A stretch of 26,523 bases of DNA, taken from IMG/VR virus record IMGVR_UViG_3300009605_006727, positions 1 to 26,523 of that record; one strand, 5' to 3'. Position 1 is the stretch's first letter. The number at the start of each line of letters is the position of its first letter. The translations under genes were made by a program, and so were the position numbers. Below the pieces are notes generated by a model, which saw nothing but the letters and a program-made list of their open reading frames with translations, had not been told where the DNA came from and searched no databases. Of the stretch, positions 4,038 to 26,317 are shown piece after piece. This DNA is from a virus.

Positions 4038-4355
4038 GGGGGTGACTAGGTATCGACAGGGTATAAAATATTGAATGGTGCAAGCTGTGCAACTACTGAA
4101 TATAACACATAAAACTTAATTCAGAACTATAATAACTGCCAATAACGCAGATTACGATCTAGCCTTAACCGCTTAATCCTTGGTTGCTCTTCATACCAAG
4201 TGTCCAAGAAGAGTCTAATAAATAAAACGTTTGTTTTTTAGTTTTTGTCGGATTGAAAAAAAGCTAAAACAATTGCCACATTGTGGCCAAGCTTGTGAAT
4301 GACCTGAAAATATGTATATTTCTGGACGACGGTGCAAGTCCGTCCACCTCCACCA
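4038..4355 (+). ncRNA. ssrA: tmRNA (transfer-messenger RNA), phage-encoded
   Basis: The tRNA-like ends are clear. GGGGGTG (4038-4044) pairs over seven bases with CACCTCC (4345-4351), including a G3-U wobble, the alanine identity element. A discriminator A and an encoded CCA (4353-4355) follow. The T stem is GACGG (4328-4332) with CCGTC (4340-4344). The 5' segment GACTAGGTATCGACAGGG and a GGTGCAAGC block match the conserved tmRNA start, and TATATTTCTGGACG matches the conserved approach to the T arm. The resume frame starts at GCC 4138 and encodes ANNADYDLALTA before TAA 4174-4176. Downstream, CTTGG/CCAAG and CTCTTC/GAAGAG interleave near 4178-4216 as an H-type pseudoknot. Length is 318 nt. One oddity: the T loop reads TGCAAGT, with G where T55 is usual. 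tmRNA is charged with alanine and rescues stalled ribosomes together with SmpB; no smpB gene is visible here. Confidence 0.93.
4138..4176 (+). other. tmRNA tag-peptide reading frame
   Basis: The resume codon GCC is followed by codons giving NNADYDLALTA and TAA, so the full tag is ANNADYDLALTA preceded by the alanine delivered by the tmRNA. The start AN and the A-x-Y core match bacterial tags. The C-terminus is LTA instead of the usual LAA recognised by ClpXP and ClpAP. The stop lies in the loop of a short AACC/GGTT hairpin, as in other tmRNAs. Confidence 0.85.
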
Positions 4356-5546: not shown

Positions 5547-6638
5547 TTGCGTAAAAAGAAGCTTAAAATTGGCCTTGTATCGGGTCATGATGAGAACATC
5601 TGGAGTAACGGCCTCGTACAGAATGTTTGGAACCTATATAGGCTTTTAAAATTAGCTGGTTACAACGTACATTGCGTATCTCAGAGTAGTAAGATAGCCG
5701 GGAAGAGCCTCTTTGACGCAAAGATCAAACCTCTACTAATAGAAAATGCAAATCAATATGATCTCATTATTGAGATTGTCCACGGCCTCACAACTAAATT
5801 AGCAGACAGTTATGTTAAGAAGGGTGGCATAGTTGTTGGTGTACAGTATGGAAACAATCTCCTAATCCACACAGAAAATATGTTATTCAAGGACGATCTG
5901 CTTCCAAAGCATGAGACCAGAAGGTCCGAAATATGGACTAGCCCTCACTACGATTTTGCAGTTCCAGCATATGAAATTTTAGAGAAAATGCCAGTTAAGA
6001 TATGTCCATATGTTTGGGATTCAGATATATTTGATTTAGCATGCAAGAACAAAAAATATGATCCATTCTTCAAACAAGGGCAAGATATCAAAACATTTGC
6101 ATCGTTCGAACCAAACATCAATATGGTGAAAACTAGTACAATTCCTATATTAATTGCTGAAAAGTACGCCGATATGACCGGTGATTATGACAAAGACGTT
6201 TATATATTTGGAGCTGAGAAACTTAAAGGAAATCCAACGTTTATCGATTTTATTCGCAAACTAGAATTACATAAAAAAAGAAAGATTTCTTTCGAAGGCC
6301 GTTGGCACACGCCCTTTGTAATGCATAAAGGTTTTGCGGACGTAATTATATCACATCAGTGGCAAAATCACTTAAATTACCTACAGTTAGAAGCAATGTA
6401 TACAAATAGGCCATGTGTTCATAATAACCCTAGGCTTGCAGAATATGGGTCTTTTTATAATGAATTTGATGTTACTGAGGGCGCCTTGCAGTTGCAGAAC
6501 GCTCTGGAGACTCATAATGAGAATTTTGAAGAGATATCAGAGATGAACAGAGAACGCCTTTGGCGGTTCAGTCCGATAAACAAAAAAAATGTACAGGGAT
6601 ATAGCGAACTAATCGAGGAGCTGATGGATAAAAGATGA
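5547..6638 (+). CDS. DUF2827-type glycosyltransferase-like protein, TTG start
   Basis: The 363-residue protein resembles DUF2827 proteins, a GT-B-like glycosyltransferase group. The N-terminus KKLKIGLVSGHDENIWSNG fits a first Rossmann strand. The C-terminal half holds SHQWQNHLNYLQLEAM (from residue 269, H270) followed by PCVHNNPRLAEYGSFY, which resembles the family's donor-site region. Translation appears to start at TTG 5547: GGAGGG at 5533-5538 is eight bases upstream and no early in-frame ATG exists. It overlaps the aminotransferase by four bases, so the two are co-translated and may act in one pathway, such as making or attaching an amino sugar. The target (base, virion glycan or host surface) is not visible. 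Confidence 0.8.
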   Translation: MRKKKLKIGLVSGHDENIWSNGLVQNVWNLYRLLKLAGYNVHCVSQSSKIAGKSLFDAKIKPLLIENANQYDLIIEIVHGLTTKLADSYVKKGGIVVGVQYGNNLLIHTENMLFKDDLLPKHETRRSEIWTSPHYDFAVPAYEILEKMPVKICPYVWDSDIFDLACKNKKYDPFFKQGQDIKTFASFEPNINMVKTSTIPILIAEKYADMTGDYDKDVYIFGAEKLKGNPTFIDFIRKLELHKKRKISFEGRWHTPFVMHKGFADVIISHQWQNHLNYLQLEAMYTNRPCVHNNPRLAEYGSFYNEFDVTEGALQLQNALETHNENFEEISEMNRERLWRFSPINKKNVQGYSELIEELMDKR

Positions 6639-7876
6639 AAAATGTATTCACTAAAATACCAAGAACGGGTGTAATTTATGTTACACAAAGAGCCACGGCC
6701 GAAGGATTTTATCGCGGCCATCCGGAGTGGTGCAACTTGGGTCAAGGCCAACCGGAAATAGGAAAACTAGTAAATGGTGTCGATAGGATCGAAGAGATTA
6801 AAATAGATCCATTGGATCATGAATATTCTCCAATAAGTGGCTTAAAGCCCCTCCGCCAAGCAATTGCAGATCAGTACAATGCACTATACAGAAAAGGTAA
6901 AAAGTCTAAATACACATATGAGAACGTCTCAGTCTGCCCCGGCGGCCGCGCGGCTTTAACAAGAGTAGTGGCATCGATAGGAAATATCAACCTAGGCCAC
7001 TTCATCCCGGATTATACTGCCTATGAAGAACTCTTAGCTTCATTTAGGACGTTCAATACAATCCCTATATTATTAGATCCAGAGAATGGATATAATATAT
7101 CGACACAGGATCTTAAAAAAGAGATTCACGGCAGGGGATTAGGCGCGCTGCTAGTTTCGAATCCCTGCAATCCAACAGGAAAAGTAATATCAGCTGATTC
7201 TTTAAACAAATGGATCGAGCTGGGTAGGGAATTTGATTGTGTTATGCTCATGGACGAGTTTTATAGTAGCTACATATATTCAGGCGCAAAAACAAATAAA
7301 ACATTGAGTTCTGCGGCTTATGTAGAAGATATCAATTCAGATCCAGTCGTCATAATTGATGGAATGTCTAAAAACTGGAGATATCCAGGCTGGCGTGTTG
7401 CTTGGGCGATTGGGCCCAAAAATATCATTAGTTCCATTAATAGTGCCGGCAGTTACTTGGATGGCGGCGCCGCAAGGCCTCTACAAAGAGCGTGCCTGCC
7501 ACTATTCGAAGATAACAAGATAGCTGTAGAAACTGCAGCTATCCAAAACACCTTCCGGAAAAAGAGAAGAGTGCTCCTCGATGGATTACAGAATATTGGC
7601 GTTTTTTTCGAAAGAGAGCCCGAAGGAGCGTTTTACGCATGGGGTAACATATCAAACCTCCCATCTTCCATCAACACCGGCCAGAACTTCCTTGAGGCGT
7701 GCCTGAAAGAGAAGGTAATTGTGGTACCCGGAGAGTATTTTGATGTCAACCCGGGAAAGAGAAGAGACAACAAGTCTAGATTCGCCAATCACATACGTTT
7801 TTCTTTCGGACCATCTGAAGATGTGATCGAAGAAGCCATTGGAAGATTGGAAAAGGTAATTCAGAGAGAGGGATGA
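6635..7876 (+). CDS. PLP-dependent class I/II aminotransferase
   Basis: The 413-residue length is typical of fold-type I aminotransferases. Visible motifs include NLGQGQPE near the N-terminus, the SNPCNPTG segment, the LMDEFYSSY aspartate/tyrosine pair, and the PLP-lysine region GMSKNWRYPGWRVAW with K246 as Schiff-base lysine. Near the C-terminus, HIRFSFG supplies the carboxylate-binding arginine. These are the classical aspartate/aromatic aminotransferase-like signatures. The amino donor and acceptor cannot be deduced. It overlaps the DUF2827 gene upstream and a small membrane-protein ORF downstream by four bases each. Transaminases are uncommon in phages; here it is probably an auxiliary metabolic or modification enzyme. 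Confidence 0.9.
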   Translation: MKNVFTKIPRTGVIYVTQRATAEGFYRGHPEWCNLGQGQPEIGKLVNGVDRIEEIKIDPLDHEYSPISGLKPLRQAIADQYNALYRKGKKSKYTYENVSVCPGGRAALTRVVASIGNINLGHFIPDYTAYEELLASFRTFNTIPILLDPENGYNISTQDLKKEIHGRGLGALLVSNPCNPTGKVISADSLNKWIELGREFDCVMLMDEFYSSYIYSGAKTNKTLSSAAYVEDINSDPVVIIDGMSKNWRYPGWRVAWAIGPKNIISSINSAGSYLDGGAARPLQRACLPLFEDNKIAVETAAIQNTFRKKRRVLLDGLQNIGVFFEREPEGAFYAWGNISNLPSSINTGQNFLEACLKEKVIVVPGEYFDVNPGKRRDNKSRFANHIRFSFGPSEDVIEEAIGRLEKVIQREG

Positions 7877-7977
7877 TGCTAGGTAAGATTTTCTTTACAA
7901 CTGCATCTTTAATTGTTATTCTACTTTTAGCAACCATGCTGACAGATGAAGGAAGTCCCACCAGATGGAAGAAGTAA
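7873..7977 (+). CDS. Small single-span membrane protein
   Basis: A 34-residue frame begins at an ATG overlapping the aminotransferase stop (ATGA), after the purine-rich AGAGAGAGGG. It encodes one hydrophobic segment (about residues 6-22, IFFTTASLIVILLLATM) followed by a short polar, basic tail ending TRWKK. The size fits small phage inner-membrane proteins. It overlaps the next gene's start by 13 bases. The function is unknown. Confidence 0.5.
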   Translation: MMLGKIFFTTASLIVILLLATMLTDEGSPTRWKK

Positions 7978-8213
7978 CTGAGCCAACACCCCACGTTGAT
8001 GGGCCCCCATGGACCATCGCCGCGCGCTTCGCAGAATTCGAAGAAGCTGATCGAAAGAGGAAAGAACTAGCCCAAGAGGAAGATCTGCAAGTAAAAGTGC
8101 ACTATATGACACCTTTGCGCAAAGATCCCTTCTTTGCCGTAAAGACAAGGATAGATCCAACTTCTCAGCTGACAACAACTAAAAATAAGAAGAACAAGAA
8201 AAGAAAATCTTGA
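7965..8213 (+). CDS. Small protein with basic tail, unknown
   Basis: The 82-residue protein is not recognised. The N-terminal half is Pro-containing, then helical and charged (FAEFEEADRKRKELAQEEDL). A short beta-like stretch follows, VKVHYMTPLRKDPFFAVKTRI. The last 13 residues are mostly Lys/Asn/Arg (KNKKNKKRKS), which could bind nucleic acid. Its 3' end overlaps the -35 box of the promoter for the SpoU gene. Confidence 0.6.
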   Translation: MEEVTEPTPHVDGPPWTIAARFAEFEEADRKRKELAQEEDLQVKVHYMTPLRKDPFFAVKTRIDPTSQLTTTKNKKNKKRKS

Positions 8214-8238
8214 CAACTAGTCATTTAAGCGCTATTAT
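8210..8238 (+). promoter_or_regulatory. sigma70-type promoter, leaderless SpoU mRNA likely
   Basis: TTGACA (8210-8215) is a perfect -35, with 17 bases to TATTAT (8233-8238). The expected transcription start falls at about 8245, which is the A of the downstream ATG. A transcript from here would carry essentially no leader. Confidence 0.6.
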
Positions 8239-8244
8239 GGTGGC

Positions 8245-8769
8245 ATGATTCGTAGTGAGACTAGACGAGAGCGTTATAACGGAAAACTAGTCGATGCAAA
8301 GACGTACCCGATATCTCTTTGTGCCATCAATTTTATGTTCGATGACAACATTGGGTACTTGATCCGCGCCGCAGCCTGCTTTGGCGCCAAAAAATTGCAT
8401 GTAATAGGCAGAATGCCCCTGAGAGGCGCTGTGAAAGCCACTAGCGGCAGTCTGTATGACTACGTAGATATTGAACCTCACAGTTCACCAACGGCATTCT
8501 TAGAGCGGATGACAGAGGAAAATGTGCAATTAATTTGTGCGGAACTGGCCAATAGCGCCGTTTCCATTGAAAATTTCAATTTTTCCTATGAAAAAGAGAT
8601 ATGCATCGTCGTTGGTAACGAAACAACAGGAATTCCACCGGAGATTCTAAAGAAAAGTCAGAATATATTTATTCCAATGCCCGGTGTGGGATTTTGTTTG
8701 AATACTGCGCAAGCAGCGAACATCATGTTATACGAAACTGTTAAACAATATGAAAGGTTAAACAAATGA
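8245..8769 (+). CDS. SpoU/TrmH-family RNA 2'-O-methyltransferase
   Basis: The 174-residue protein has the three SPOUT motifs in order: NIGYLIRAAACFGA with N35 and R41 (motif 1), IVVGNETTGIPPEIL with G124-N125-E126 (motif 2), and IPMPGVGFCLNTAQAANIMLYE with N153 (motif 3), which forms the SAM-binding knot. This family methylates ribose 2'-OH groups of tRNA or rRNA. The compact length without an N-terminal substrate domain is like TrmL-type enzymes. The canonical S before L in motif 3 is replaced by C151. The neighbouring tRNA and tmRNA genes suggest phage or host tRNA as substrate, but rRNA is equally possible. The stop overlaps the next ATG. Confidence 0.88.
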   Translation: MIRSETRRERYNGKLVDAKTYPISLCAINFMFDDNIGYLIRAAACFGAKKLHVIGRMPLRGAVKATSGSLYDYVDIEPHSSPTAFLERMTEENVQLICAELANSAVSIENFNFSYEKEICIVVGNETTGIPPEILKKSQNIFIPMPGVGFCLNTAQAANIMLYETVKQYERLNK

Positions 8770-11779: not shown

Positions 11780-13432
11780 ATGGCTTTTGAATTAGGACAA
11801 GTAATTCAGGGACGCCACCTCGTAGCAGGTGACATGTCCGGTGAACTACAGGTATCCGCAGTAGGCGGACACAGCGGCGACCTTGATGCCGTTCTCGCTG
11901 GCTTGAACAGCGACATTGAAGCAGAGGAAGTTGCTCGCGCAGCTGCCTTTGCAGCAGGTGAAGCAGCAACAAACGCTGGCTTTACATCCATGGGCGCTCG
12001 CGTCGATGCACACGAAGCTTCTGCTGACACTCGTATGGGTGCTGAAGAAGTTGCACGTGCTGCAGCCGACACATCTCTCACGACTCGTCTCGCAGCGGAA
12101 GAAGCGGCTCTCGCAGCAGAAATCGCAGCAACAGCAGCAGACTTCGTGTCTGCAGACGCTCGTTCCACAAGCGGCGAAGCAGCTCTCGCAGCTGAAATCG
12201 CAGCAACAGCAGCAGATTTCACATCCGCTGACCTCCGCGCTTCCAACGGTGAAGCAGCTCTCGCAGCAGAGATTGCAGCAACAGCAGCAGACTTCGTGTC
12301 TTCTGACGCGCGCGTTCTCGCTGACGAGGCTGCTCTCGCAGCTGAAATCGCTCGCGCAGGTGGTGTTGAGTCCTCTTTAGAGACTCGTCTCGCAGCTGAA
12401 GAAGCAGCTCTCGCAGCTGAAATCGTAGCAACGACAGCAGATTTCGTATCTGCAGACCTCCGCGCTGCCAACGGTGAAGCAGCTCTGACGGCCTACTCTG
12501 GCTCGCAGGCATCAGTCCGTGCTTACGATCAAGTAATCATCAATGACCACTTCACTGATGTATACGTAGCTATGGGTGCTCACGAAGTATCTGCTGACGC
12601 ACGCATTGGCGCTGAAGAATCTGCCCGTGCAGCTTTCCAGACATCTTCTGATGCGCGCCTCAGCGCTGACGAGATTGCCTTGAACGCAGCTGACGCTTCC
12701 ATTGAGACTCGTCTCATTGCTGAAGAAGCAGCTCTCGCAGCTGAAATCGCAGCAACAAACGCTGATGTCACTTCTATCGATCTTGCAATTGCAGACGAAG
12801 TAGCCCTTCGCGGCGGAGCCGACGCGTCTCTCACGACTCGTCTCGCTGCAGCGGAAGCTAAAGAAGCAGCAGATTTCGTATCTGCAGACGCAGCTGCAGC
12901 AGCTGAGCACGTAGCAGTAAGCGCAGCCTTCGCATCCGGTGACACTCGTCACGGTGTGGAAGAAGCAGCCCGAGCAGCAGGCGACTTATCTTTGGAAACA
13001 AAGATTGACGCTGACATTGCAGCATTGGTTAACTCTGCTCCAGCACAGCTTGACACTCTCTTAGAGATTGCAAACTCTTTGAACAACGATGCTAACGCAT
13101 TCAACACTCTCAATGGACTCATCTCCACCGAGAATGCTGGCCGTGTAGCAGCACTTGCTTCCGCAGACGCTCGTCAGGGTGTAGAAGAGGCAGCACGCGC
13201 AGCAGCAGACGCATCTCTCACGACTCGTCTCGCAGCAGCAGAAGCTGAAGAAGCAGCTGATATGATCAGCTCTGACGCACGCGTTCTTGCAGTAGAAGAC
13301 ACTGGTGTCCAGAAGGTTTCCTTCGACGACGCAGCTGGCATCTACAGCATGAGCTTCGGCGCAGGCAAGCCATCGATGGAAATGTCCCTCGACGGTGGTC
13401 AGATCAAGGTTGAGTTCAAGGTTGCTGTATAA
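11780..13432 (+). CDS. Ala-rich 25-residue-repeat fibrous structural protein
   Basis: The 550-residue protein has a short globular-looking N-terminus (MAFELGQVIQGRHLVAG) and a long helical body. Five near-perfect 25-residue repeats of the type EAALAAEIAATAADFVSADAR lie at residues 108-232, with diverged copies to about residue 510. APAQLDTLLEIANSLNND (around 415-432) matches a motif frequent in marine-phage tail-fibre proteins. The end (about 510-550) is beta-like (IYSMSFGAGKPSMEMSLDGG). The periodicity and composition fit a trimeric coiled-coil fibre or head/tail decoration. Codon choice (GCA/GCT, CTC, CGT) and higher GC differ from the neighbours, suggesting high expression. It has its own leader and a strong 3' hairpin, so it is probably monocistronic. 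Which virion part it forms is not visible. Confidence 0.85.
   Translation: MAFELGQVIQGRHLVAGDMSGELQVSAVGGHSGDLDAVLAGLNSDIEAEEVARAAAFAAGEAATNAGFTSMGARVDAHEASADTRMGAEEVARAAADTSLTTRLAAEEAALAAEIAATAADFVSADARSTSGEAALAAEIAATAADFTSADLRASNGEAALAAEIAATAADFVSSDARVLADEAALAAEIARAGGVESSLETRLAAEEAALAAEIVATTADFVSADLRAANGEAALTAYSGSQASVRAYDQVIINDHFTDVYVAMGAHEVSADARIGAEESARAAFQTSSDARLSADEIALNAADASIETRLIAEEAALAAEIAATNADVTSIDLAIADEVALRGGADASLTTRLAAAEAKEAADFVSADAAAAAEHVAVSAAFASGDTRHGVEEAARAAGDLSLETKIDADIAALVNSAPAQLDTLLEIANSLNNDANAFNTLNGLISTENAGRVAALASADARQGVEEAARAAADASLTTRLAAAEAEEAADMISSDARVLAVEDTGVQKVSFDDAAGIYSMSFGAGKPSMEMSLDGGQIKVEFKVAV
12101..12475 (+). repeat. Tandem 75-bp coding repeats (five copies)
   Basis: Copies start at 12101, 12176, 12251, 12326 and 12401, each 75 bases and in frame, so each encodes one 25-residue unit beginning EAALAAEI. 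Copies 1-3 and 5 are closest; copy 4 is diverged in its second half. Such repeats can change copy number by recombination. Confidence 0.85.
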
Positions 13433-13520: not shown

Positions 13521-13548
13521 TGAAACAATACAACGAAGGGTGTCAAAA

Positions 13549-14157
13549 ATGAACAAAAACTATAAAAAGTTAATATTGAAATATCAATATCTCTTAGAAG
13601 AATTACAAGACACAGAAGACGATCTACAAACAGTTCAAACTCTCTTCAATAAAGAAATTGAAGATGATGAGCGTACATCAGCTTGGAACGATCATGCTGA
13701 AGAATTGAACGAAAATGAAGCTGCAGAAGAAAAACAGGAAGCCTCTGACGATGACGATTGTGGCGACGATGAATCCATGGTACATCCAAAAATAATGAAA
13801 ACAATATATAGGAGATTGTCTAGAGTTTGCCACCCTGATATATCAGCTGATCCTAGCTCCGAAGCAACGTTCGTGGAGCTATCCGCTGCATATGCCGAAC
13901 AAAATTATCTTCTCATGCTAATATTGGCTATCGAACTAGATGTCAATATAGACGATCTTAAGAGGCAAATATCAAAAAAACACTTCAAACATTTTAAAAA
14001 ATCGATAAATAAGCTTGAAGAAAAAATATCCAAACATCAAGGTTCTTTCGCATGGATGTGGTATAACGAAGAAGATGAGAAAAAGAAAGAGGCGATCAAA
14101 GAACTGTTTTTGAGAACAATTGACAATATGAGACAAAAAGAAGGGAGATCGAAATAA
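13549..14157 (+). CDS. J-domain (DnaJ-like) protein
   Basis: The 202-residue protein has a central partial J-domain: IYRRLSRVCHPDISADPSSEATFVELSAAY, with the HPD tripeptide at 95-97 between helix II and a helix III-like segment ('F.ELSAAYAEQNYLLML'). The N-terminal about 75 residues are acidic coiled coil (EELQDTEDDLQTVQTLF); the C-terminal about 70 are basic and helical. J-domains stimulate Hsp70 (DnaK) ATPase through HPD, so this protein could recruit host DnaK to virion assembly or replication proteins (inference). ATG 13549 is chosen over GTG 13540 because AAGGG (13536-13540) is then eight bases upstream. The stop overlaps the next ATG (TAATG). Confidence 0.8.
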   Translation: MNKNYKKLILKYQYLLEELQDTEDDLQTVQTLFNKEIEDDERTSAWNDHAEELNENEAAEEKQEASDDDDCGDDESMVHPKIMKTIYRRLSRVCHPDISADPSSEATFVELSAAYAEQNYLLMLILAIELDVNIDDLKRQISKKHFKHFKKSINKLEEKISKHQGSFAWMWYNEEDEKKKEAIKELFLRTIDNMRQKEGRSK

Positions 14158-17442: not shown

Positions 17443-18231
17443 ATGAATGACAGCAATACAGTGCTTCTATGTCCACCCATGTTTTTTGATGTGAAATATT
17501 CAATCAATCCATGGATGAAGGGTGAAAAAGTCAACACGGCCATGGCAAGAAAACAATGGTTTGAGATGAAGTGGGTACTGGAAGATCTAGGTATAAAAGT
17601 GAAGCTCATAGGGCAGGAAAACTATCTGCCAGATATGGTTTTCACAGCCAACGCCGGAACAGTTAAAGACAAAAAAGTAGTCTTAAGTAATTTTAAGCAC
17701 TATCAACGACAGCCGGAAAGAGAAGTATTTCAGCGTTGGTTTGAGGAATTCGGATATGAAACTCACAAGCTACCAGACGGCATGCACTTTGAAGGCTGCG
17801 GAGACACGATTCTATCGGGCAACAAGCTGATTGCGGGGTATGGATATAGATCAGACCTCCGGGCCCTTAAAAAGACCGCTGAGATCTTAGAATTGCAATT
17901 AATTTCTCTTAAGCTAAAGAATCCCAACTTTTATCACCTAGACACCTGTTTTAGCCTCCTAAGAGAAGACTTGGCCATATATTATCCCGGCGCATTTAGC
18001 GATCACACAATATCGAAAATTAAAAACATAGAACTGTTACCGGTAACGGAGAACGAAGCTAATCAGTTCGCATGCAACTCTATCGTGTACAAAGACAACA
18101 TATTAATGCCGGCAAAGAATAATCGCCTTGTTGATGAATTGGCAAATTATGGTTACACTGTTAGGCTGATCGACACTTCTGAATTCTTAAAATCCGGTGG
18201 ATCATTACAATGTATGTCTTTATGGATTTAA
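17443..18231 (+). CDS. Amidinotransferase-fold enzyme, dimethylargininase-like
   Basis: The 262-residue protein has the motif order of the guanidino-modifying (DDAH/arginine deiminase-type) family: LLCPPMFFDVKYSINPWM at the N-terminus, LPDMVFTANAG around D64, HFEGCGD with E117, HLDTC with H165, NQFACNSIV, and SGGSLQC with C257 as candidate nucleophile close to the end. Glu, His and Cys form the catalytic set, and Asp64 may hold the guanidinium. Length suits a single-domain DDAH-like hydrolase. It could hydrolyse arginine, a methylated arginine or another guanidino/amidino compound, releasing ammonia or citrulline-type products; the exact substrate is unknown. No Shine-Dalgarno sequence precedes the ATG, which suggests leaderless translation or coupling to processed tRNA transcript. 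Confidence 0.82.
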   Translation: MNDSNTVLLCPPMFFDVKYSINPWMKGEKVNTAMARKQWFEMKWVLEDLGIKVKLIGQENYLPDMVFTANAGTVKDKKVVLSNFKHYQRQPEREVFQRWFEEFGYETHKLPDGMHFEGCGDTILSGNKLIAGYGYRSDLRALKKTAEILELQLISLKLKNPNFYHLDTCFSLLREDLAIYYPGAFSDHTISKIKNIELLPVTENEANQFACNSIVYKDNILMPAKNNRLVDELANYGYTVRLIDTSEFLKSGGSLQCMSLWI

Positions 18232-19049: not shown

Positions 19050-20282
19050 ATGAGTATTTTTAGAGAACACAAATCAAAAGTTGATAGAAGTGCAACTGAC
19101 AGAAAGCGCCACAAAGAAAAGATTGAAAAGGCTATCAAGGAAAGCATAAAAGATGTTGTAGCAGAAGAGAGTATTATTGGCCAGAGTGGCAAAAAGAAAA
19201 TAAAAATCCCTGTAAAGGGTATAAAAGAATATAGGTTTGTCTACGGTGGCAACGAAAAGAATCAAAAGGTTGGATCCGCCGGCGACATCGACGTTAAGAA
19301 GGGCCAAAGGATCGGCAAAAAGACGGCAGAAAGAATGCAACAGGGAAACAAGCCCTCCGACAAAGCCGGCGAAGAATCCTATGAAGTAGAGATAAGCTTA
19401 GAAGAGTTAGCTAGTTACCTGTTTGACAGCCTAGAGCTTCCGGAACTAGAAAAGAAGAGATTTAAGTTTGTAAATCAAGAAAAGCTAAGAAGGAAGGGCC
19501 ATCGCCTCAAAGGCATCCGTTCCAGACTTTCAAAGAAGGAAACTCTTAAGAGAAAAATTAAGAGAAAGAAGCGGGCTATAGCGGCTGGTACCTATAATCC
19601 CGACAGCGACGAGCGCTTTCCGTTTCACAAGGACGATTTAAAGTATCACCACGTTAAGCCAAAAAATAAAGAAAATACTGCCGCTGTCATTTTCTTCTTA
19701 ATGGATGTATCCGGTTCTATGGATCAGGATAAAAAATTCTTGGCAAGAAGCTTCTGTTTCCTCTTGTATCAATTCATTAGGCACAAATACGAAAACGTTG
19801 AAGTTGTATTTATCTCACACACCACTGAAGCAAAGCAGGTAAATGAGCAAGAGTTCTTCACTAGAATAACGTCCGGCGGTACGATAATGTCGACGGCCCT
19901 AGAGTTAGAGAAAGACCTAATTGAGAAGCAATATCACCCAAGTTCTTGGAATATATACACTTTTTATGCCGGCGATGGTGAAAATTGGCCGGCCGACATC
20001 AAAAAGTCTGTAGATCTGCTAGCCGAACTCAAAGAAATTAATCAACTAATTTCATATGCAGAAATAACGCCATGGGATACCAACGGTTGGCAAGATCCCA
20101 CGTGGGTAGATCCCATGGTACCAAAACCATACCATGCCAGAAGGACCAATCTGAACCCCATGGCGCTGTCGATGTGGGAAGAATTAAATTTAATTGAGGA
20201 CTCCTCTTTGAAGAGAATAAAGATAGTTAACTCAGAGTCAATATGGCCCGCATTCAACAGGCTGTTCGGAGTAAAGAAATAA
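19050..20282 (+). CDS. YeaH/YhbH-family protein (VWA-like, DUF444)
   Basis: The 410-residue protein matches the bacterial YeaH/YhbH family in length and layout. It has a basic helical N-terminus beginning MSIFREHKS, a lysine/arginine-rich middle, a conserved YHHVKPKNKENTAAVIFFLMDVSGSM region and a von Willebrand A-like domain. The MIDAS motif DVSGS is at 219-223 and SGGTIMSTAL follows later. In bacteria this gene is usually linked to prkA/yeaG and spoVR/ycgB and acts in stationary-phase, starvation or sporulation control. GAGGAAG precedes the ATG. Its stop overlaps the next start by one base (TAATG). The phage copy keeps the metal-binding residues and is probably functional. Confidence 0.9.
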   Translation: MSIFREHKSKVDRSATDRKRHKEKIEKAIKESIKDVVAEESIIGQSGKKKIKIPVKGIKEYRFVYGGNEKNQKVGSAGDIDVKKGQRIGKKTAERMQQGNKPSDKAGEESYEVEISLEELASYLFDSLELPELEKKRFKFVNQEKLRRKGHRLKGIRSRLSKKETLKRKIKRKKRAIAAGTYNPDSDERFPFHKDDLKYHHVKPKNKENTAAVIFFLMDVSGSMDQDKKFLARSFCFLLYQFIRHKYENVEVVFISHTTEAKQVNEQEFFTRITSGGTIMSTALELEKDLIEKQYHPSSWNIYTFYAGDGENWPADIKKSVDLLAELKEINQLISYAEITPWDTNGWQDPTWVDPMVPKPYHARRTNLNPMALSMWEELNLIEDSSLKRIKIVNSESIWPAFNRLFGVKK

Positions 20283-21598
20283 TGAACGATTGGACTATAG
20301 GAGAATTAGAGGACTGGGATAATAAGATCTGTAAGATCGGCGAATCATACGGCCTAGACTGGTTTGACATTGATTATGAAATAATCGATTATCATGAAAT
20401 GATCGGTGCGATGTCCTACACCGGCATGCCTACGCACTATAGACATTGGTCTTTTGGAAAGTCTTTTGAACTTACTCATGCAAAATATACAATGGGTCAG
20501 ACCGGCCTACCTTATGAGATGATTATCAACTCAAACCCGAGCATCGCTTATTTGATGAAAGAGAATCCACTAAGCACACATTTGTTAACCATGGCACATT
20601 GTGTCGGCCATAGTGATTTCTTTAAGAACAACAGAATGTTTAAACATACAGATCCAGACAACGTGATCAATAGGTTCAAGTTAGGCGCTAAGAGGATTCA
20701 AGAATATCTCGGAGATCCATCGATAGGTGTAGAGAAAGTAGAAAACATTATAGATGCATGTCATGCAATAAAGTACCAAATCCCCAGAACCCCTGGTATC
20801 ATAAGACGAAGCAATGATGAACTTAGGGCAATTTATGCGGAGAAGATGCTTGATGATGAGGATGGGATATACGATGATATTAATCTGGATAAGGTGCCCC
20901 TAGAACGAGATTATAATTTACTAGCATTCATCAGAGAAAACTCTCGTAATCTTACAGATTGGCAGAGAGATGTAATGTTGATTGTAGAAGAGAATTCTCA
21001 ATATTTCCTTCCACAAGCTTATACGAAAATTATGAACGAGGGTTGGGCCGTCCTAATTCATGAAAAAATAATGAAAGAATTAGATCTCCCACATAAACAT
21101 CATTTGGCTTTTATAAAATTACATAATCAGGTCGTCCGCCCACATTTGGGTAGTGTAAATCCTTACCACCTAGGCTATACAATTTTTAAGAAGATAGAGG
21201 AAGCTGAAGGCCTAGACGCTTGTTTGTTAGCCCGCGAAGTACATAATGATGTTTCATTTTTAAGAAAATACTTAGATGAAGAAACTTGTAGGGAGTTGAA
21301 TTTATTTGCTTTTTCCTTTAAAAAAAGAAACAATCAGCATACTATAGATGATGTTTCTAATGAAGACGGGTGGACGAACGTCCGCGACGCTCTAATTAGT
21401 ACAGTTGGATTGAACTCTGTGCCGGTTGTGTATGTGGAAGAGCTAATGAAGGACAGCACACTACGTATTATACATGAGCACGATGGTCGCGATATAGACC
21501 TACGTGACGCGCAAAGAGTGTATGACCATATAAAACAACTGTGGGGAGACGATGTACTCTTTACAACAATAATTGAAGAGGAGCCATGGGAATTCTAA
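20282..21598 (+). CDS. SpoVR/YcgB-family protein
   Basis: The 438-residue protein shows the SpoVR hallmark block MPTHYRHWSFGKSFELTHAK, followed by TGLPYEMIINSNPSIAYLMK and MAHCVGHSDFFKNN. The later VQRPHLG-like segment (VVRPHLGSVNPYHLGYTIF) is also typical. ATG 20282 is chosen, overlapping the YeaH stop; an in-frame ATG at 20243 lies within the YeaH gene. It is somewhat shorter than bacterial homologues such as E. coli YcgB. SpoVR was named for a role in Bacillus spore cortex formation; its biochemical activity is unsettled. Position between YeaH and PrkA repeats the conserved bacterial trio, with order changed. Confidence 0.9.
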   Translation: MNDWTIGELEDWDNKICKIGESYGLDWFDIDYEIIDYHEMIGAMSYTGMPTHYRHWSFGKSFELTHAKYTMGQTGLPYEMIINSNPSIAYLMKENPLSTHLLTMAHCVGHSDFFKNNRMFKHTDPDNVINRFKLGAKRIQEYLGDPSIGVEKVENIIDACHAIKYQIPRTPGIIRRSNDELRAIYAEKMLDDEDGIYDDINLDKVPLERDYNLLAFIRENSRNLTDWQRDVMLIVEENSQYFLPQAYTKIMNEGWAVLIHEKIMKELDLPHKHHLAFIKLHNQVVRPHLGSVNPYHLGYTIFKKIEEAEGLDACLLAREVHNDVSFLRKYLDEETCRELNLFAFSFKKRNNQHTIDDVSNEDGWTNVRDALISTVGLNSVPVVYVEELMKDSTLRIIHEHDGRDIDLRDAQRVYDHIKQLWGDDVLFTTIIEEEPWEF

Positions 21599-21599
21599 A

Positions 21600-23534
21600 A
21601 TGAAAAAATCAACAAAATTTCTTAAGGAAATAGACAAACACAGCAGTCGTAAAAGAGCTGAAAAATTTGAAGGAACTTTGGGAGAATATATCAATCTTCT
21701 AGAAGTCAATCCTTCAGCTTGTGATTTAGCTCACAAGCGACTCTATGAGGCTCTTGCTGGCCATGGTATCACTACTATGGCGGAGTCCGACACTAGGTGC
21801 AATAAACTTTTTGGCGGAGAAGCAGTAAAAACTTATGATTATTTTCAAAGTAAGTTCTTTGGAATGGAGCGTTCTTTAGCAAAAATCATGAGATTCCTGA
21901 GATCAGCCTCTTTAAAAGGTGAAGAAAGCCGACAGGTTTTGCTTTTACTCGGCCCAGTTGGCGCCGGCAAATCTGCCCTTGTAGAACACATCAAGCGCGC
22001 CCTAGAGAATTCCGGCCCGATGTATCACATTGCAGATTGTCCAATACACGAGGAACCCCTCCATTTGATCCCGCGTGGTTTAAGAGCCTCTTTCCAAGAA
22101 ATTTATGGCATCAAAATCGAAGGTGATTTATGTCCCGTCTGCCGGCACAATCTCTTGAATGAACACGCCGGCGATTACATGAATGTTCCAGTTTCAGAGT
22201 CGACCTTTTCAATTAGAGGCCGCCGCGGCGTCGGTGTTGTACCACCAATGGATGCCAATACACAGGATACATCGATCTTAATAGGTACTGAAGACATTTC
22301 GAAATTGGATCTATATCCAGAAGATGATCCCCGTGTCTTGAGTCTTAATGGGGCATTCAACGTAGGTAATCGCGGCATTGTAGAGTTCGTTGAGGTCTTC
22401 AAGAATGAAATCGAGTTCTTGCATACCATGATTACGGCAACTCAGGAAAAATCAGTCCCTTCCCCGGGCAAGCAGGCCATGATTTATTTTGATGGTGTAA
22501 TCCTCTCTCACTGTAACGAAGCAGAGTGGAATAAGTTCAAGTCTGAGCACACTAACGAAGCAATCTTGGATAGAATTGTACGCGTTAACGTGCCGTACTG
22601 CTTAGAATACGCAGAAGAAGAGAAGATTTACAAAAAATTAATTGGTGAATCTGATTTTGAGTGCCATTTTGCGCCTCACACACTAGAATTTGCCTCCATG
22701 TTTGCTGTTCTTTCCCGCCTCAAGCCAACGAACAAAGTAGATCTTCTTACGAAGATGAAAATATACAACGGTGAAGAGATTGTTGAAAAGGGTTCTGTTC
22801 GCAAACTTGACATTGATGATCTCCGCGAAGAGGTAGTTGATGAAGGGATGACGGGTATTTCTACACGTTTTATCATGAAGGCTATCGACAATGCATTGTC
22901 GGACTCAGATAAGAACATGATAACTCCAATCTCTATTCGCGACTCACTTGTAAAGCAGGTGAAGGACCAGATTGTAGATCAAGAAACTAGAGAAACATGC
23001 TTGATTTTCTTACAGAAAATTCTTCACGAAGAGTACCTAAGAATTCTAGAGAAAGAAATAACAAAGGCTTTTGTTTCCGCATATGACGAACAGGCCGAAG
23101 CTTTATTCAATAACTATCTCGACCATGCCGAGGCTTACGTGAACGCCACAAAGGTTAAGGATCGGGTTACGAAAGAAGAGATCAATCCCGATGAGAACTT
23201 CATGAAATCAATCGAACAGCAGATCGGTATACAGGGTAGCGCTAAAGATAATTTTAGAAGCGACATTACTGCTTACATGTTTGCTATGCTCCGCCGCGGC
23301 GAAGTCATTGACTGGAGAAGTTACGGGCCCCTACGTGAAGCAATTGAGAACAAATTAGTAACATCAGTGAAAGATATAACAAGAATCGTTACAAAGTCTA
23401 AGAGTAGAGATAAGGGCCAACAGAAGAAATACAATGGTATGGTAGAAACTCTAATAGAAGACTATGGATACACCGAAGACTCTGCAGAGGAAATTATCAA
23501 ATTTGCTGCTAATAATTTGTGGAGAGATTCGTAA
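21600..23534 (+). CDS. prkA: PrkA/YeaG-family AAA+ serine protein kinase
   Basis: The 644-residue length agrees with PrkA/YeaG proteins. The Walker A motif GPVGAGKS is at 118-125. The PrkA-specific region follows: HEEPLHLIP, then the cysteine-containing CPVCRHNL. Family blocks NRGIVEFVEVFKNEIEFLHT and FDGVILSHCNEAEWNKF are present, and a C-terminal regulatory domain ends the protein. PrkA proteins are AAA+ ATPases reported as serine kinases, and protease activity has also been proposed, acting in starvation and sporulation responses. ATG 21600 lies one base after the SpoVR stop; an upstream in-frame TTG (21573) is possible but less likely. Together with YeaH and SpoVR it should act as a unit on host regulators or envelope (inference). 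Confidence 0.92.
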   Translation: MKKSTKFLKEIDKHSSRKRAEKFEGTLGEYINLLEVNPSACDLAHKRLYEALAGHGITTMAESDTRCNKLFGGEAVKTYDYFQSKFFGMERSLAKIMRFLRSASLKGEESRQVLLLLGPVGAGKSALVEHIKRALENSGPMYHIADCPIHEEPLHLIPRGLRASFQEIYGIKIEGDLCPVCRHNLLNEHAGDYMNVPVSESTFSIRGRRGVGVVPPMDANTQDTSILIGTEDISKLDLYPEDDPRVLSLNGAFNVGNRGIVEFVEVFKNEIEFLHTMITATQEKSVPSPGKQAMIYFDGVILSHCNEAEWNKFKSEHTNEAILDRIVRVNVPYCLEYAEEEKIYKKLIGESDFECHFAPHTLEFASMFAVLSRLKPTNKVDLLTKMKIYNGEEIVEKGSVRKLDIDDLREEVVDEGMTGISTRFIMKAIDNALSDSDKNMITPISIRDSLVKQVKDQIVDQETRETCLIFLQKILHEEYLRILEKEITKAFVSAYDEQAEALFNNYLDHAEAYVNATKVKDRVTKEEINPDENFMKSIEQQIGIQGSAKDNFRSDITAYMFAMLRRGEVIDWRSYGPLREAIENKLVTSVKDITRIVTKSKSRDKGQQKKYNGMVETLIEDYGYTEDSAEEIIKFAANNLWRDS

Positions 23535-23548
23535 ATAAAAAGTGATAT

Positions 23549-24889
23549 ATGACAAAGACTATCTATGTGCTAGACACTAGTGTTTATTTAACAAACGCTG
23601 ATTCAATTTTTTCCTTCAACGATAATGATATAATTATTCCGCTGAAGGTATTAGAAGAGGTAGACAAGCATAAGAAGCGCCAAGATGGCGCCGGCTTGAA
23701 TGCTAGAACGATAATTCGAATATTAGATTCCCTAAGAGAAGAGGGCAGCCTCTATGAAGGCGTCGGCTTGGGCCCGGGCCTGGGAAAAATCAAGGTAAGA
23801 GGGATAGAGACAGTTCATACAGACCAGTTCCCTAAAGATCTGAATATGAACGTTCCCGACCATATGATCATCGCGACAGCTCTGTCTGAAAAGATAGATA
23901 GTCCCGAAAGCGAAATTGTGGTTGTCACGCGTGACATTAACATGCGCGTAATCTGTGACTCTCTGGGTCTGTCCTGTGAAGATTATATTGACAATAAGAT
24001 TGTTAAGAGTGGCGAAAGTATTTTTACAGGTCACGTGGCGCACAGCATAGAAGACTCAGAAATCGATGCACTCTATAGCGGTGAAGAGATATACTTAGAT
24101 CCTGAAGAGATTGAAGTCTTTCCAAATCAATTTGTAATGTTGAAATCAAACATCAATTCAAAAAGAACGGTTTTGACACGATTTGTAAATTATGTTAGCC
24201 CTCTCGTCCGCGTCGCCGCTAACAGGGCTGGTGTCTGGGGGGTGAAACCTAGGAACAGGGAACAGACGTACGCCCTAGATATCTTGATGAACCCAGATAT
24301 ATCCCTAGTTACGTTGATAGGCAAGGCCGGCTCCGGTAAGACTCTTTGTGCTATAGCCGCGGGAATACAGCAAACTTTAGATCCAACATCGGGTGATGCT
24401 GGCGAACCTAGATACACTAGAATGATCGTTTCTCGCCCCGTTCAGCCGCTAGGAAAGGATATTGGTTTCCTTCCCGGCACCCTGGAAGAGAAGATGCACC
24501 CATGGTTGATGCCGATTCAAGATAATCTGCAGTTCTTAATGGGTAACGACAAAGCAACGCTAGAAATGTACATGGAGCAGGGCACAATTGAGATAGAAGC
24601 TCTGACCTATATCCGCGGCCGCTCGATAGCAAATGCTTTTATTATTATTGATGAGGCTCAGAACTTAACAACTCACGAATTAAAGACTATTATTACAAGA
24701 GTTGGTGAGGGTACTAAAATTGTATTGACCGGTGATGTCGAACAGATTGATAATACATATATCGATGCTACTAGCAACGGTTTAACGCATGCAGTTGAGA
24801 AGTTTAAAGAAGCAGACCTAGCAGCCCACATCACCCTCTTGAAAGGTGAGAGATCTAAAGTTGCAACCCTCGCCGCAAAAATCTTATAG
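23549..24889 (+). CDS. phoH: PIN-PhoH fusion (PhoH2-type RNase/helicase)
   Basis: The 446-residue protein joins an N-terminal PIN ribonuclease domain (YVLDTSVYL with D9, acidic E36/E37, and VVTRDINMR) to a C-terminal PhoH ATPase. The ATPase has Walker A GKAGSGKT at 258-265, Walker B IIIDEAQN with D368-E369, and the VLTGDVEQID sensor. PIN-PhoH (PhoH2) proteins unwind and cut RNA in bacteria. Phage PhoH is common in marine phages, often as the ATPase alone. It starts 14 bases after prkA without a clear Shine-Dalgarno sequence, and so probably belongs to the same operon. It could degrade host mRNA or manage RNA during starvation-like physiology. Confidence 0.93.
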   Translation: MTKTIYVLDTSVYLTNADSIFSFNDNDIIIPLKVLEEVDKHKKRQDGAGLNARTIIRILDSLREEGSLYEGVGLGPGLGKIKVRGIETVHTDQFPKDLNMNVPDHMIIATALSEKIDSPESEIVVVTRDINMRVICDSLGLSCEDYIDNKIVKSGESIFTGHVAHSIEDSEIDALYSGEEIYLDPEEIEVFPNQFVMLKSNINSKRTVLTRFVNYVSPLVRVAANRAGVWGVKPRNREQTYALDILMNPDISLVTLIGKAGSGKTLCAIAAGIQQTLDPTSGDAGEPRYTRMIVSRPVQPLGKDIGFLPGTLEEKMHPWLMPIQDNLQFLMGNDKATLEMYMEQGTIEIEALTYIRGRSIANAFIIIDEAQNLTTHELKTIITRVGEGTKIVLTGDVEQIDNTYIDATSNGLTHAVEKFKEADLAAHITLLKGERSKVATLAAKIL

Positions 24890-24898
24890 GAGAATAGA

Positions 24899-25207
24899 AT
24901 GAGCACAGAAGAGAATCCAATATTAAAAGAAGTAGTCGAGCAGGATTCACCATTAAAAACTTTAGTGGTTAATTATGTCGGCACAGTACACAGTCCAGAA
25001 AACGGAGAAATTACCGTAGAAATGATTGTAGACACCATGGTTAAAGAATTTCCAGAATTTTTGATGGTTATCGCAGAAGAAAACTGGATTAGAGGATATC
25101 ACCAAGCGCTGGGCGATGTCGAAGAGGGCGAACGTTTGGCACAGGAACAATCCACTACTCCCGAGCAAACTGAAACGACTGAAGAAGTCCCCGCCGCAGC
25201 AGAATGA
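24899..25207 (+). CDS. Small acidic protein, unknown
   Basis: The 102-residue protein starts after AGGAG and is acidic throughout. The ordered part (about residues 15-80, including VNYVGTVHSPENGEITVEMIVDTMVKEFPEFLM) looks helical, and the tail is Glu/Thr/Pro-rich and probably disordered. No domain is recognised. It overlaps the next start by four bases and thus is co-translated with the metallopeptidase-like protein. Confidence 0.7.
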   Translation: MSTEENPILKEVVEQDSPLKTLVVNYVGTVHSPENGEITVEMIVDTMVKEFPEFLMVIAEENWIRGYHQALGDVEEGERLAQEQSTTPEQTETTEEVPAAAE

Positions 25208-25872
25208 TGAGAGATTTTGTAAAAGAGGCCGCATCACAGCCTAGGCGTGAATATCATATATACAATGATATCAACGTCTTAATCAAGGATTTCCCGCAGT
25301 CCGAAGAGGTTGATATTCCGGCCCTTTTATCAAAAATAGAATACACACTACCCAGATACTACTTCGATAATATTGACGTTGTTTATGTCGGCGAATTCGA
25401 AGATTTGGGTGATCGCAATGCTGCATTTTTAGATGGCGCTATCTATATGACGAGCACAGAACCAACAACACATGATATGTTAGAAAATATTGTACATGAG
25501 GTTGCGCACTCCCTAGAGGGCGATCATGGTGATATGCTGTATGGCGACCAGAAGGTTATTAGCGAATTCCTAGGAAAAAGAGAAAGACTTAGGTTAATTC
25601 TAGAACAAGAAGGTTACACAATCCCTGAAGAGTTCTACGAGCAGACCGAATACAACAGAAATTTTGATAAATTCCTAATGAATACGGTAGGGTACCCTAC
25701 ATTAACATATCTGACAATGGGCCTGTTTGTTAGCCCATACGGTGCCACTTCTTTGCGAGAGTATTTTGCAAATGCTTTTGAGCATTTTTATATCAATGAT
25801 CGCGAAGATGTTAAGAAAGTAAGTCCGCAAGTTTACTTGAAGATTGACTATTTACATAAAACAGGAGAGTAA
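25204..25872 (+). CDS. HExxH metallopeptidase-like protein
   Basis: The 222-residue protein has the zinc site HEVAH at 98-102 within NIVHEVAHSLEGDHGD and a later helix SLREYFANAFEHFYI that could give a third, acidic ligand, as in gluzincin-type peptidases. There is no signal peptide, so it should act in the cytoplasm or virion. A putative role is processing of a phage or host protein (head maturation or host shutoff are possibilities). The substrate is unknown. It overlaps the upstream gene (ATGA). Confidence 0.75.
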   Translation: MMRDFVKEAASQPRREYHIYNDINVLIKDFPQSEEVDIPALLSKIEYTLPRYYFDNIDVVYVGEFEDLGDRNAAFLDGAIYMTSTEPTTHDMLENIVHEVAHSLEGDHGDMLYGDQKVISEFLGKRERLRLILEQEGYTIPEEFYEQTEYNRNFDKFLMNTVGYPTLTYLTMGLFVSPYGATSLREYFANAFEHFYINDREDVKKVSPQVYLKIDYLHKTGE

Positions 25873-25873
25873 T

Positions 25874-26317
25874 ATGTTAAACACATTCAACGAACTTAAA
25901 AAGGAATTATCCCTAGATACCAGCACGAACACCTTGACAGTGACAATTGGCGTACCAAAGAAGACCAGAAGAACCTCATTGATTGTCGTAAAGGGTAAAA
26001 CCGTTAAGAATTGGGTAGAGAATTCTGGCTATGTTGTTGTCGATACAATTAAATCAAATCGTATCGACAATAGCGAAAGCGTAGCCGACAACACTTGGGT
26101 ATATGAAGTGGAGAAATTGATTCAGGCCACCCAGCCGACAAAAAATGAAAAAGAAGACCCTCAGTTGGCCGCAAGACCAGAAAATCAAGAAAAAGAAGAA
26201 AAAGCTATTGACAATTCTGAAGCAGAGGCTATAATAGAGACTAAGACAGTGCAAAAGCGACCTAAAACTCGCAAAAAGGGAACTAAGACAGTTCGGAGCA
26301 CTAGAAAAGAGGATTAG
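25874..26317 (+). CDS. Small protein with charged disordered tail
   Basis: The 147-residue product starts at ATG 25874, after GGAGAG; an in-frame ATG at 25844 lies within the previous gene. The first 85 residues look like a compact alpha/beta domain (TLTVTIGVPKKTRRTSLIVV, NWVENSGYVVVDTI). The remainder is Glu/Lys-rich and ends in a basic cluster (RPKTRKKGTKTVRSTRKED). No family is recognised. Its stop overlaps the next gene's GTG start by one base. Confidence 0.7.
   Translation: MLNTFNELKKELSLDTSTNTLTVTIGVPKKTRRTSLIVVKGKTVKNWVENSGYVVVDTIKSNRIDNSESVADNTWVYEVEKLIQATQPTKNEKEDPQLAARPENQEKEEKAIDNSEAEAIIETKTVQKRPKTRKKGTKTVRSTRKED

Follow-up and report, generated by a model that had tools for sequence, protein, structure and literature searches.

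The 26,523-base virus record IMGVR_UViG_3300009605_006727 of IMG/VR (hereafter the window, i.e., the whole stretch of DNA analyzed) carries four large genes in a row on one strand, encoding a YeaH/YhbH-type protein, a SpoVR family protein, the AAA+ ATPase PrkA and a two-domain PIN-PhoH protein (Table 1). An earlier annotation made from the letters alone, here called the original prediction, had described them as a bacterial starvation module (YeaH, SpoVR and PrkA) joined by an RNase/helicase in a phage operon. The tight packing was confirmed: with the ATG starts listed, the gaps between the four genes are -1, 1 and 14 bases, all four are full length, and their motifs are intact. The longest open reading frames (ORFs) for SpoVR and PrkA begin further upstream, at position 20243 and at a TTG at 21573, respectively.

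Table 1. Positions of the genes and features discussed (window coordinates unless a locus is named; aa, amino acids).
Feature	Position	Strand	Size and basis
DUF444 protein of the YeaH/YhbH type, with N-terminal part and VWA domain	19050..20282	+	410 aa; ORF and Pfam
SpoVR family protein	20282..21598	+	438 aa from ATG 20282; ORF and Pfam
PrkA (YeaG) AAA+ ATPase with C-terminal PrkA domain	21600..23534	+	644 aa from ATG 21600
PIN-PhoH (PhoH2-like), putative RNase/helicase	23549..24889	+	446 aa; Pfam PIN_4 and PhoH
Three small ORFs downstream of PhoH	24899..26317	+	102, 222 and 157 aa; outside the conserved unit
222-aa protein among these three	25204-25872	+	Pfam, below cut-off
Trio embedded between capsid/neck and tail sheath/tube/hub genes	L112:3029-19569, also L038, L013 and others	one strand	
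Chaperonin-like protein downstream of PrkA	L070:12218-13597		~450 aa
Possible tubulin/FtsZ-like gene	L070:16786-17958		below cut-off
Transfer-messenger RNA (tmRNA)	4038-4355		
DUF2827 protein and class I/II aminotransferase	5547-8769		
Segment of raised GC content	12001-13000		
Partial J-domain-like match	13540-14157		Pfam, just below cut-off
Arginine dihydrolase/dimethylargininase-like protein	17443-18231		Pfam

All four proteins were placed in their families by Pfam: YeaH matched DUF444 with 350 bits and SpoVR its namesake domain with 388.5 bits (cut-off 27 for both), PrkA matched AAA_PrkA with 458.5 and the PrkA C-terminal domain with 271.1 bits (cut-offs 25), and PIN-PhoH matched PhoH with 175 bits (cut-off 27) and PIN_4 with 89 bits (21.9). 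The C-terminal domain SpoVR_C stayed narrowly below its threshold (26.2 versus 27.6). None reached the cut-off of the corresponding NCBI equivalog (371.6 bits versus 467.95 for YeaH and YhbH, TIGR02877; 265 versus 679 for SpoVR and PRK11767; 397.2 versus 576 for PrkA and PRK15455; 273 versus 680 for PIN-PhoH and PhoH2), and they thus belong to these families but differ from the curated bacterial proteins. As originally described, the metal ion-dependent adhesion site (MIDAS) of YeaH is complete (D219, S221, S223, T278 and D309), all five residues being invariant in 44/44 aligned sequences, and PrkA is full length, with both Pfam domains and a Walker A motif (GPVGAGKS) that is retained in the alignment. 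SpoVR carries an HxxxH motif (residues 106 and 110), an NEGxA motif (252-256) and H260; H106, H110, E253, G254 and A256 are invariant in 102/102 sequences, and N252 and H260 are present in 100. PIN-PhoH was likewise intact, with both domains; across 57 aligned rows, conservation is at least 97% at D9, E37, D104 and D129 and at the core positions of Walker A and B.

Relatives were collected from IMG/VR by scans with short peptide words, which sample the database rather than provide a census (156 relatives for PrkA and 120 for SpoVR, each list being limited to its best 80). The 157 viral loci collapsed to 106 distinct ones. At 101 of these, the genes for YeaH, SpoVR and PrkA lay next to each other in this order on one strand, and at the remaining five the trio was cut by a contig end; adjacency in the same order at so many distinct loci is far from chance. 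At two of the 101 full-trio loci, YeaH was split into two ORFs; such a split, reflecting a frameshift, a real break or an assembly error, was noted at L104, L126 and L154. Between the window and its nearest distinct relative, L005, the proportion of nonsynonymous differences (pN) in the trio was 0.07-0.10 and that of synonymous differences (pS) 0.76-0.82; these proportions are quoted because synonymous divergence (dS) between the two is saturated. For comparison, pN was 0.11 in PhoH and 0.20-0.30 in three other nearby genes. These values indicate strong purifying selection on the trio.

The trio resides on phage genomes. Sixteen virus records and three bacterial metagenome-assembled genomes (MAGs) bearing it were probed for phage genes, and the T4-type capsid protein gp23 was found in 14 and the large terminase in 15 of the 19. 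In virus records of at least 165 kb, gp23 and terminase accompanied the trio in 12/12, and a gp21-type prohead protease was present in all 12 as well. A bacterial chromosome, which the original prediction had named as the outcome that would undo it, was therefore rejected as the source of the lineage. In the window's four nearest relatives, which are fragments of 44-100 kb, gp23 was not found; one of them (G003; 100 kb, syntenic) has the terminase. No tail sheath was found in the 26.5-kb window record or in these four records, all of which are fragments. A search with the terminase of record G005 (best 20 of 2,531 records, all below 60% identity) gave ∼41% identity to Flavobacterium phage immuto and Microcystis phage Mel-JY01, the best of the isolates listed, so that the carriers look like an uncultured T4-like lineage.

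Three matches came from bacterial MAGs (L161, L162 and L163; 63-66% identity). The reading of L163 (63%) as a bacterial gene was rejected, as its 305,838-base contig (G019 C5, assigned by matching coordinates) holds gp23, terminase and SpoVR. In the MAG of L162, a different contig carries gp23 and yet another one an additional SpoVR of bacterial type; the MAG of L161 yielded neither a gp23 nor a terminase match. Both copies were read as viral because of the trees described below. Host flank can probably enter a phage record, as suggested by Enterobacter phage LAU1, which was rejected as a trio carrier since its yeaG-yeaH pair lies at one end of a record of prophage type and was read as host flank. 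The 26.5-kb window itself gave no sheath match. Against these two points stand the 12 large records with gp23 and terminase and the phage contig of L163, and the purifying selection speaks against a useless passenger block. That the trio is misfiled bacterial chromosome or such a passenger is extremely improbable, and for the lineage it is already refuted.

Among 50,697 public phage records, PrkA was found in 16: 11 Thermus phage records, four uncultured phages of 595-642 kb, and phage LAU1. In a separate scan with the terminase (522 relatives, best 80 kept), the 15 longest records were probed (contigs of 61-267 kb); PrkA and SpoVR occurred together in two and were both lacking in 13, and a partial trio was not seen. 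The unit is hence accessory and not essential to the wider group, and its placement in the core of the whole terminase-defined group was rejected.

Trees were built for all three genes from 43 viral representatives including the window (less than 86% identical in PrkA, chosen from 92 full-length sets), the three MAG-binned copies, Thermus phages, huge phages and bacteria (genome contigs, Escherichia coli K-12 and 40 chosen regions from evenly drawn genomes of three phyla). The alignments had 110, 102 and 108 rows and were analyzed by quick IQ-TREE runs with support from the Shimodaira-Hasegawa-like approximate likelihood ratio test (SH-aLRT; values below are for PrkA/SpoVR/YeaH). Partial, lone or duplicate copies had been left out beforehand (L165, L166, L174, L184, L186, L187, L201 and L251). 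The T4-like viral set formed one clade (99/100/99). Three huge phages grouped with Pseudomonadota (100/100/100; SpoVR from two of the three), another (L198) with a mainly Myxococcota set (100/100/99), and the Thermus phages stood as a separate branch (100/98/95). Since these clades are separate in all three trees, at least four phage lineages possess the unit; the survey of phages with all three genes thus identified a lineage of large T4-like phages with an intact block and, separately, other large phages. Long branches, namely those of the Thermus phages and L198, make exact positions unsure. For PrkA, a single clade of T4-like and Thermus phages was rejected by the approximately unbiased (AU) test (p=0.0005).

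Within the viral clade, the gene trees shared 19-26 splits among 46 viral rows, compared with at most 2 in shuffles, and the SpoVR and YeaH trees had no conflicting starred splits. The three trees thus agree in the main, and single acquisitions, the other outcome that would have spoken against the original prediction, were not shown. Beside the T4-like clade stood the chromosomal trio of three Bacillota genomes (L268, L269 and L270; 99/72/69), a sister position that received 1.0 in a FastTree analysis of the joined alignments (101 rows). At these Bacillota loci, 17 of 20 neighboring ORFs had a Pfam match, none of them to a phage family. Identity between the window and this nearest chromosomal trio was 58-59% in PrkA and 42-47% in SpoVR and YeaH. 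As a side observation, at least two Bacillota genomes with the phage-like trio (G363 and G414) have an additional PrkA whose score resembles that of ordinary ones. The T4-like and Thermus phages, which the PrkA tree places apart, have the gene order YeaH-SpoVR-PrkA in common; among the bacterial loci compared, it was matched only by Bacillota L277 and L278, the usual bacterial order being PrkA-YeaH-SpoVR. Most simply, an ancestor of the T4-like lineage would have captured all three genes together from a chromosome of Bacillota type. The virus carries an intact copy of the whole unit, as had been proposed: the trio is viral, its motifs are intact, and it is inherited as a block.

The neighborhood of the trio was followed for up to 10 kb on each side; many contigs stop sooner, so that all neighbor counts are minima. 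In the window's 14-row PrkA clade, capsid or tail-sheath genes lay beside the trio on the same strand in 10 of the 13 other representatives. The order often seen in these sister phages, all on one strand, is a gene in the scaffold place, gp23, a head-tail adaptor, two genes of ∼280 aa, YeaH, SpoVR and PrkA, sometimes followed by a gene of 376 or 831 aa and then by tail sheath (PHROG E 6.5e-64), tail tube and baseplate hub. At L112, the gene preceding YeaH overlaps it by 4 bases. Elsewhere, a divergent chaperonin-like protein is encoded downstream of PrkA (PHROG groEL E 4.8e-16, solved chaperonins E 3.2e-9, no Pfam match), with relatives at 25 of 44 representative loci. Among the 101 loci with a full trio, gp23 was seen at 22, sheath at 13, both at 8, either at 27, the chaperonin-like gene at 35 and PhoH at 34; over all 106 loci including the cut ones, the counts were 24, 14, 8, 30, 37 and 35, respectively. 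Virion and chaperonin-like genes never occurred at the same locus, and none of the searched genes lay on the opposite strand. It is possible, if doubtful, that the trio has been turned into a virion-assembly or late protein-folding machine, expressed from the capsid-neck-tail operon, which would remodel head, neck or tail proteins or clear failed assemblies. If so, its bacterial role would also be protein remodeling and not kinase signaling.

The original prediction had counted PIN-PhoH as part of the unit, which did not hold. PhoH was seen at a minority of the loci, as counted above. It follows the trio immediately in close relatives of the window and nowhere else (at 14 bases in the window and 13 in L004), lies 2.8-9.3 kb downstream in the other loci where it was seen, and has relatives in many phages (3,623 of 50,697 records, compared with 16 for PrkA). 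The link to RNA turnover that had been drawn from it is weakly helped by the reported in vivo crosslinking of Bacillus subtilis SpoVR to RNA (PubMed Central [PMC] number PMC12456014). That trio and PIN-PhoH jointly remodel or degrade RNA-protein complexes, e.g., stalled ribosomes, seems quite unlikely to us: the close spacing in the window and L004, the crosslinking and the tmRNA of the window fit such a role, and the distance of PhoH from the trio in the other loci where it was seen and its wide distribution among phages do not.

To which kind of machine the three proteins might belong is suggested by their folds. The YeaH model (whole-model pLDDT, i.e., predicted local distance difference test score, of 73) matched VWA domains in its VWA region with Z up to 19.1, and the longest structural alignment (201 residues, Z 16.4) paired it with the MIDAS domain of Rea1/Midasin, which is part of an AAA+ motor. 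Midasin/Rea1 and other pairs of AAA+ motor and MIDAS are thus among the closest systems. In Midasin, motor and MIDAS form one protein; here, the ∼200 aligned residues belong to YeaH, and PrkA is the AAA+ protein. We know of no SpoVR counterpart in Midasin/Rea1 systems. For PrkA, a homologue has been solved (PDB 9xip, 9xiq and 9xir; E=4e-101, 30 chains across the three entries). The signaling role of the original prediction was not upheld: PrkA is an AAA+ protein, its kinase activity is disputed in print, and purified B. anthracis PrkA is reported to show no kinase activity and to form oligomers with ATP (PMC13001217).

The SpoVR model (pLDDT 91) was compared to solved structures with VIA-align, and 47 of the 50 listed entries are by title zinc peptidases (M1, M3, M32, M61 and collagenase) or angiotensin-converting enzymes (ACE/ACE2), with the titles of 3o0y, 7a03 and 7l0n naming no class. 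The best Z was 10.4; 28 of the 50 rows come from the ACE family, and the rows are hence not independent. The NEGWA sequence of SpoVR resembles NEGFA, the motif of M1 peptidases, and the invariant E253 within it is a candidate for a third metal ligand. At the second position of HxxxH, the 102 SpoVR sequences have Cys (50), Val (40), Ala (10) or Ser (2), and never Glu. SpoVR was not filed as a gluzincin peptidase because the catalytic Glu of HExxH is absent from 102/102 sequences. These motifs fit a metal site and speak against an ordinary peptidase, and the model suggests a zincin-like fold. An ATP-dependent protease, in which PrkA would unfold and a zincin-type SpoVR would cut host or phage proteins to clear them, would suit the nearest structural neighbors, the retained HxxxH and NEGxA motifs and a reported weak ATP-dependent protease activity of B. 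subtilis PrkA (cited in PMC13001217). We regard it as unlikely in view of the missing Glu; moreover, the weak activity of B. anthracis PrkA reportedly vanished on further purification, protease activity being undetectable in the pure protein (PMC13001217). Replacement of the prohead protease by SpoVR was rejected, as the phages retain their gp21-type enzyme in 12/12 records.

With moderate confidence, we favor the view that the trio acts as an ATP-driven protein-remodeling machine in phage production, plausibly late, rather than as a kinase signaling relay, and that it is a captured block kept under selection. PrkA would form the AAA+ motor ring, YeaH would bind and couple the substrate through its MIDAS, and SpoVR, as a zincin-like metal-site protein, would act on or hold the target. 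The most likely targets of such a machine, while phage is being produced and plausibly late in infection, would be proteins or protein-RNA complexes. The all-or-none occurrence of the trio, the retained motifs, the agreement of the trees and the virion or chaperonin-like neighbors are consistent with this view.

A number of findings weigh against it. No experiment was found that shows YeaH, SpoVR and PrkA in one complex. The window trio sits between tRNA-Asn and PhoH, near tRNAs and an HNH gene, with neither a virion nor a chaperonin neighbor, so that a late function is borrowed from relatives. No virion gene was seen near the trio in three of the 13 clade mates (L011, L016 and L018), and among the remaining 29 viral representatives virion genes stood beside it in 0/29, with a chaperonin-like neighbor in 25/29. 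The trio is missing from 13 of the 15 terminase-selected records, though some of these are fragments. As to SpoVR, in addition to the lacking catalytic Glu, its Z of 10.4 falls within the range that VIA-align reports for helical models, plain Foldseek of the model gave no match better than E 0.57, and a profile search of PDB sequences gave no believable match. The Bacillota sister placement is strong for PrkA only (99, the other two being 72 and 69), and the PrkA tree conflicts with that of SpoVR at 5 pairs of starred viral splits and with that of YeaH at 4, which makes occasional PrkA exchange within the viral clade possible. Finally, E. coli yeaG mutants show a starvation phenotype, which fits control of the host state (PMC4664914).

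Such control had been the function originally proposed, namely that the phage-made stress module holds starved or slow hosts in a low-activity state or brings them out of it, allowing infection to wait or to go ahead. That the bacterial genes form a stress-linked module was corroborated by the literature: prkA of Rhizobium etli heads a prkA-VWA-spoVR operon and was the array gene most strongly induced by guanosine tetraphosphate (ppGpp; PMC3188799), and E. coli requires YeaG to adapt to nitrogen starvation and for a metabolically split population (PMC4664914). A change in yeaG is also listed among the sweeps in E. coli selected with T7 (PMC10044975), from which no conclusion was drawn here. 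In addition, among the sporulation-type viral genes of an oxygen-minimum-zone virome, spoVR ranked first in abundance (PMC8940887), and the window trio lies among tRNA, tmRNA and metabolic genes. However, most of the window's clade mates have the trio beside virion genes, and an R. etli prkA mutant showed no clear stress phenotype (PMC3188799). The sister-phage neighbors (capsid, neck and tail, or chaperonin-like) point at least equally to virion production or protein handling, which leaves starvation or dormancy control as a weak claim and, in our estimate, rather unlikely. E. coli K-12 carries yeaG-yeaH and does not sporulate; sporulation is therefore not the common role, and a viral spoVR or prkA in viromes should not be read as a "sporulation" gene.

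The bacterial prkA-yeaH-spoVR operons (E. coli yeaG-yeaH, R. etli, and the Bacillota and Chloroflexota trios) comprise the same three families, full length and mostly adjacent. In the Thermus phages (YS40, TMA, phiLo, MN1 and Lalka), searches with PrkA and DUF444 matched the same 11 records and SpoVR matched four of these; the annotation of YS40 names SpoVR and a serine kinase. YS40 and MN1 share the order of the T4-like phages, but YS40 has an extra gene between SpoVR and PrkA. Each of the four huge phages of 595-642 kb (LR745206, LR756502, LR756504 and LR756511) has relatives of all three genes, in the order PrkA-YeaH-SpoVR in three of them; in LR756502, SpoVR lies ∼245 kb from PrkA-YeaH. 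A table for the Ralstonia jumbo phage RsoM2USA lists SpoVR (ORF28) near PrkA (ORF30), with bacterial best matches; SpoVR was guessed to control cell cycle or division, and the main text names neither YeaH nor DUF444 (PMC8504454). A search of open PubMed Central, whose scope excludes subscription papers such as any on Thermus phage genomes, found no description of the trio as a phage unit or within a virion operon. The family was already known, as were single trio genes in phages; what is new, as far as this search reaches, is that several lineages inherit the trio as a block, the order of its genes in phages, and its place in a virion operon. In bacteria, the three genes are common and stress-linked, without an agreed molecular function. 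Their retention as a compact block in several phage lineages, in one subclade amid virion genes, argues that the three belong together and limits the possible functions. The Thermus phages, with laboratory strains as hosts, offer a tractable system for finding this function, and the bacterial machine becomes testable from the phage side.

Several minor features were recorded along the way. PADLOC gave no match for YeaH or SpoVR and weak matches only for PrkA and PhoH among the four proteins. The T4 late-promoter word TATAAATA was not enriched in the window (1 match versus 1.7 expected). The three small ORFs after PhoH are retained in the five closest records; the 222-aa product has metallopeptidase matches to Pfam ATLF and Peptidase_M90, both below cut-off. 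At L070, a weak tubulin/FtsZ match (E 3e-5) possibly represents a phage tubulin. Besides one tmRNA (tag peptide ANNADYDLALTA), the window has eight tRNAs according to ARAGORN or nine according to Rfam. The arginine dihydrolase/dimethylargininase-like gene (DDAH_eukar E 9e-21) lies between a tRNA-Ser and an HNH gene, and a SpoU-type RNA methylase follows slightly further on from the DUF2827 and aminotransferase genes. The J-domain-like match is to Pfam DnaJ (E 4.5e-6). Finally, GC content rises to 56% (flanks 41-43%) within a 550-aa ORF with weak tail-fiber matches.

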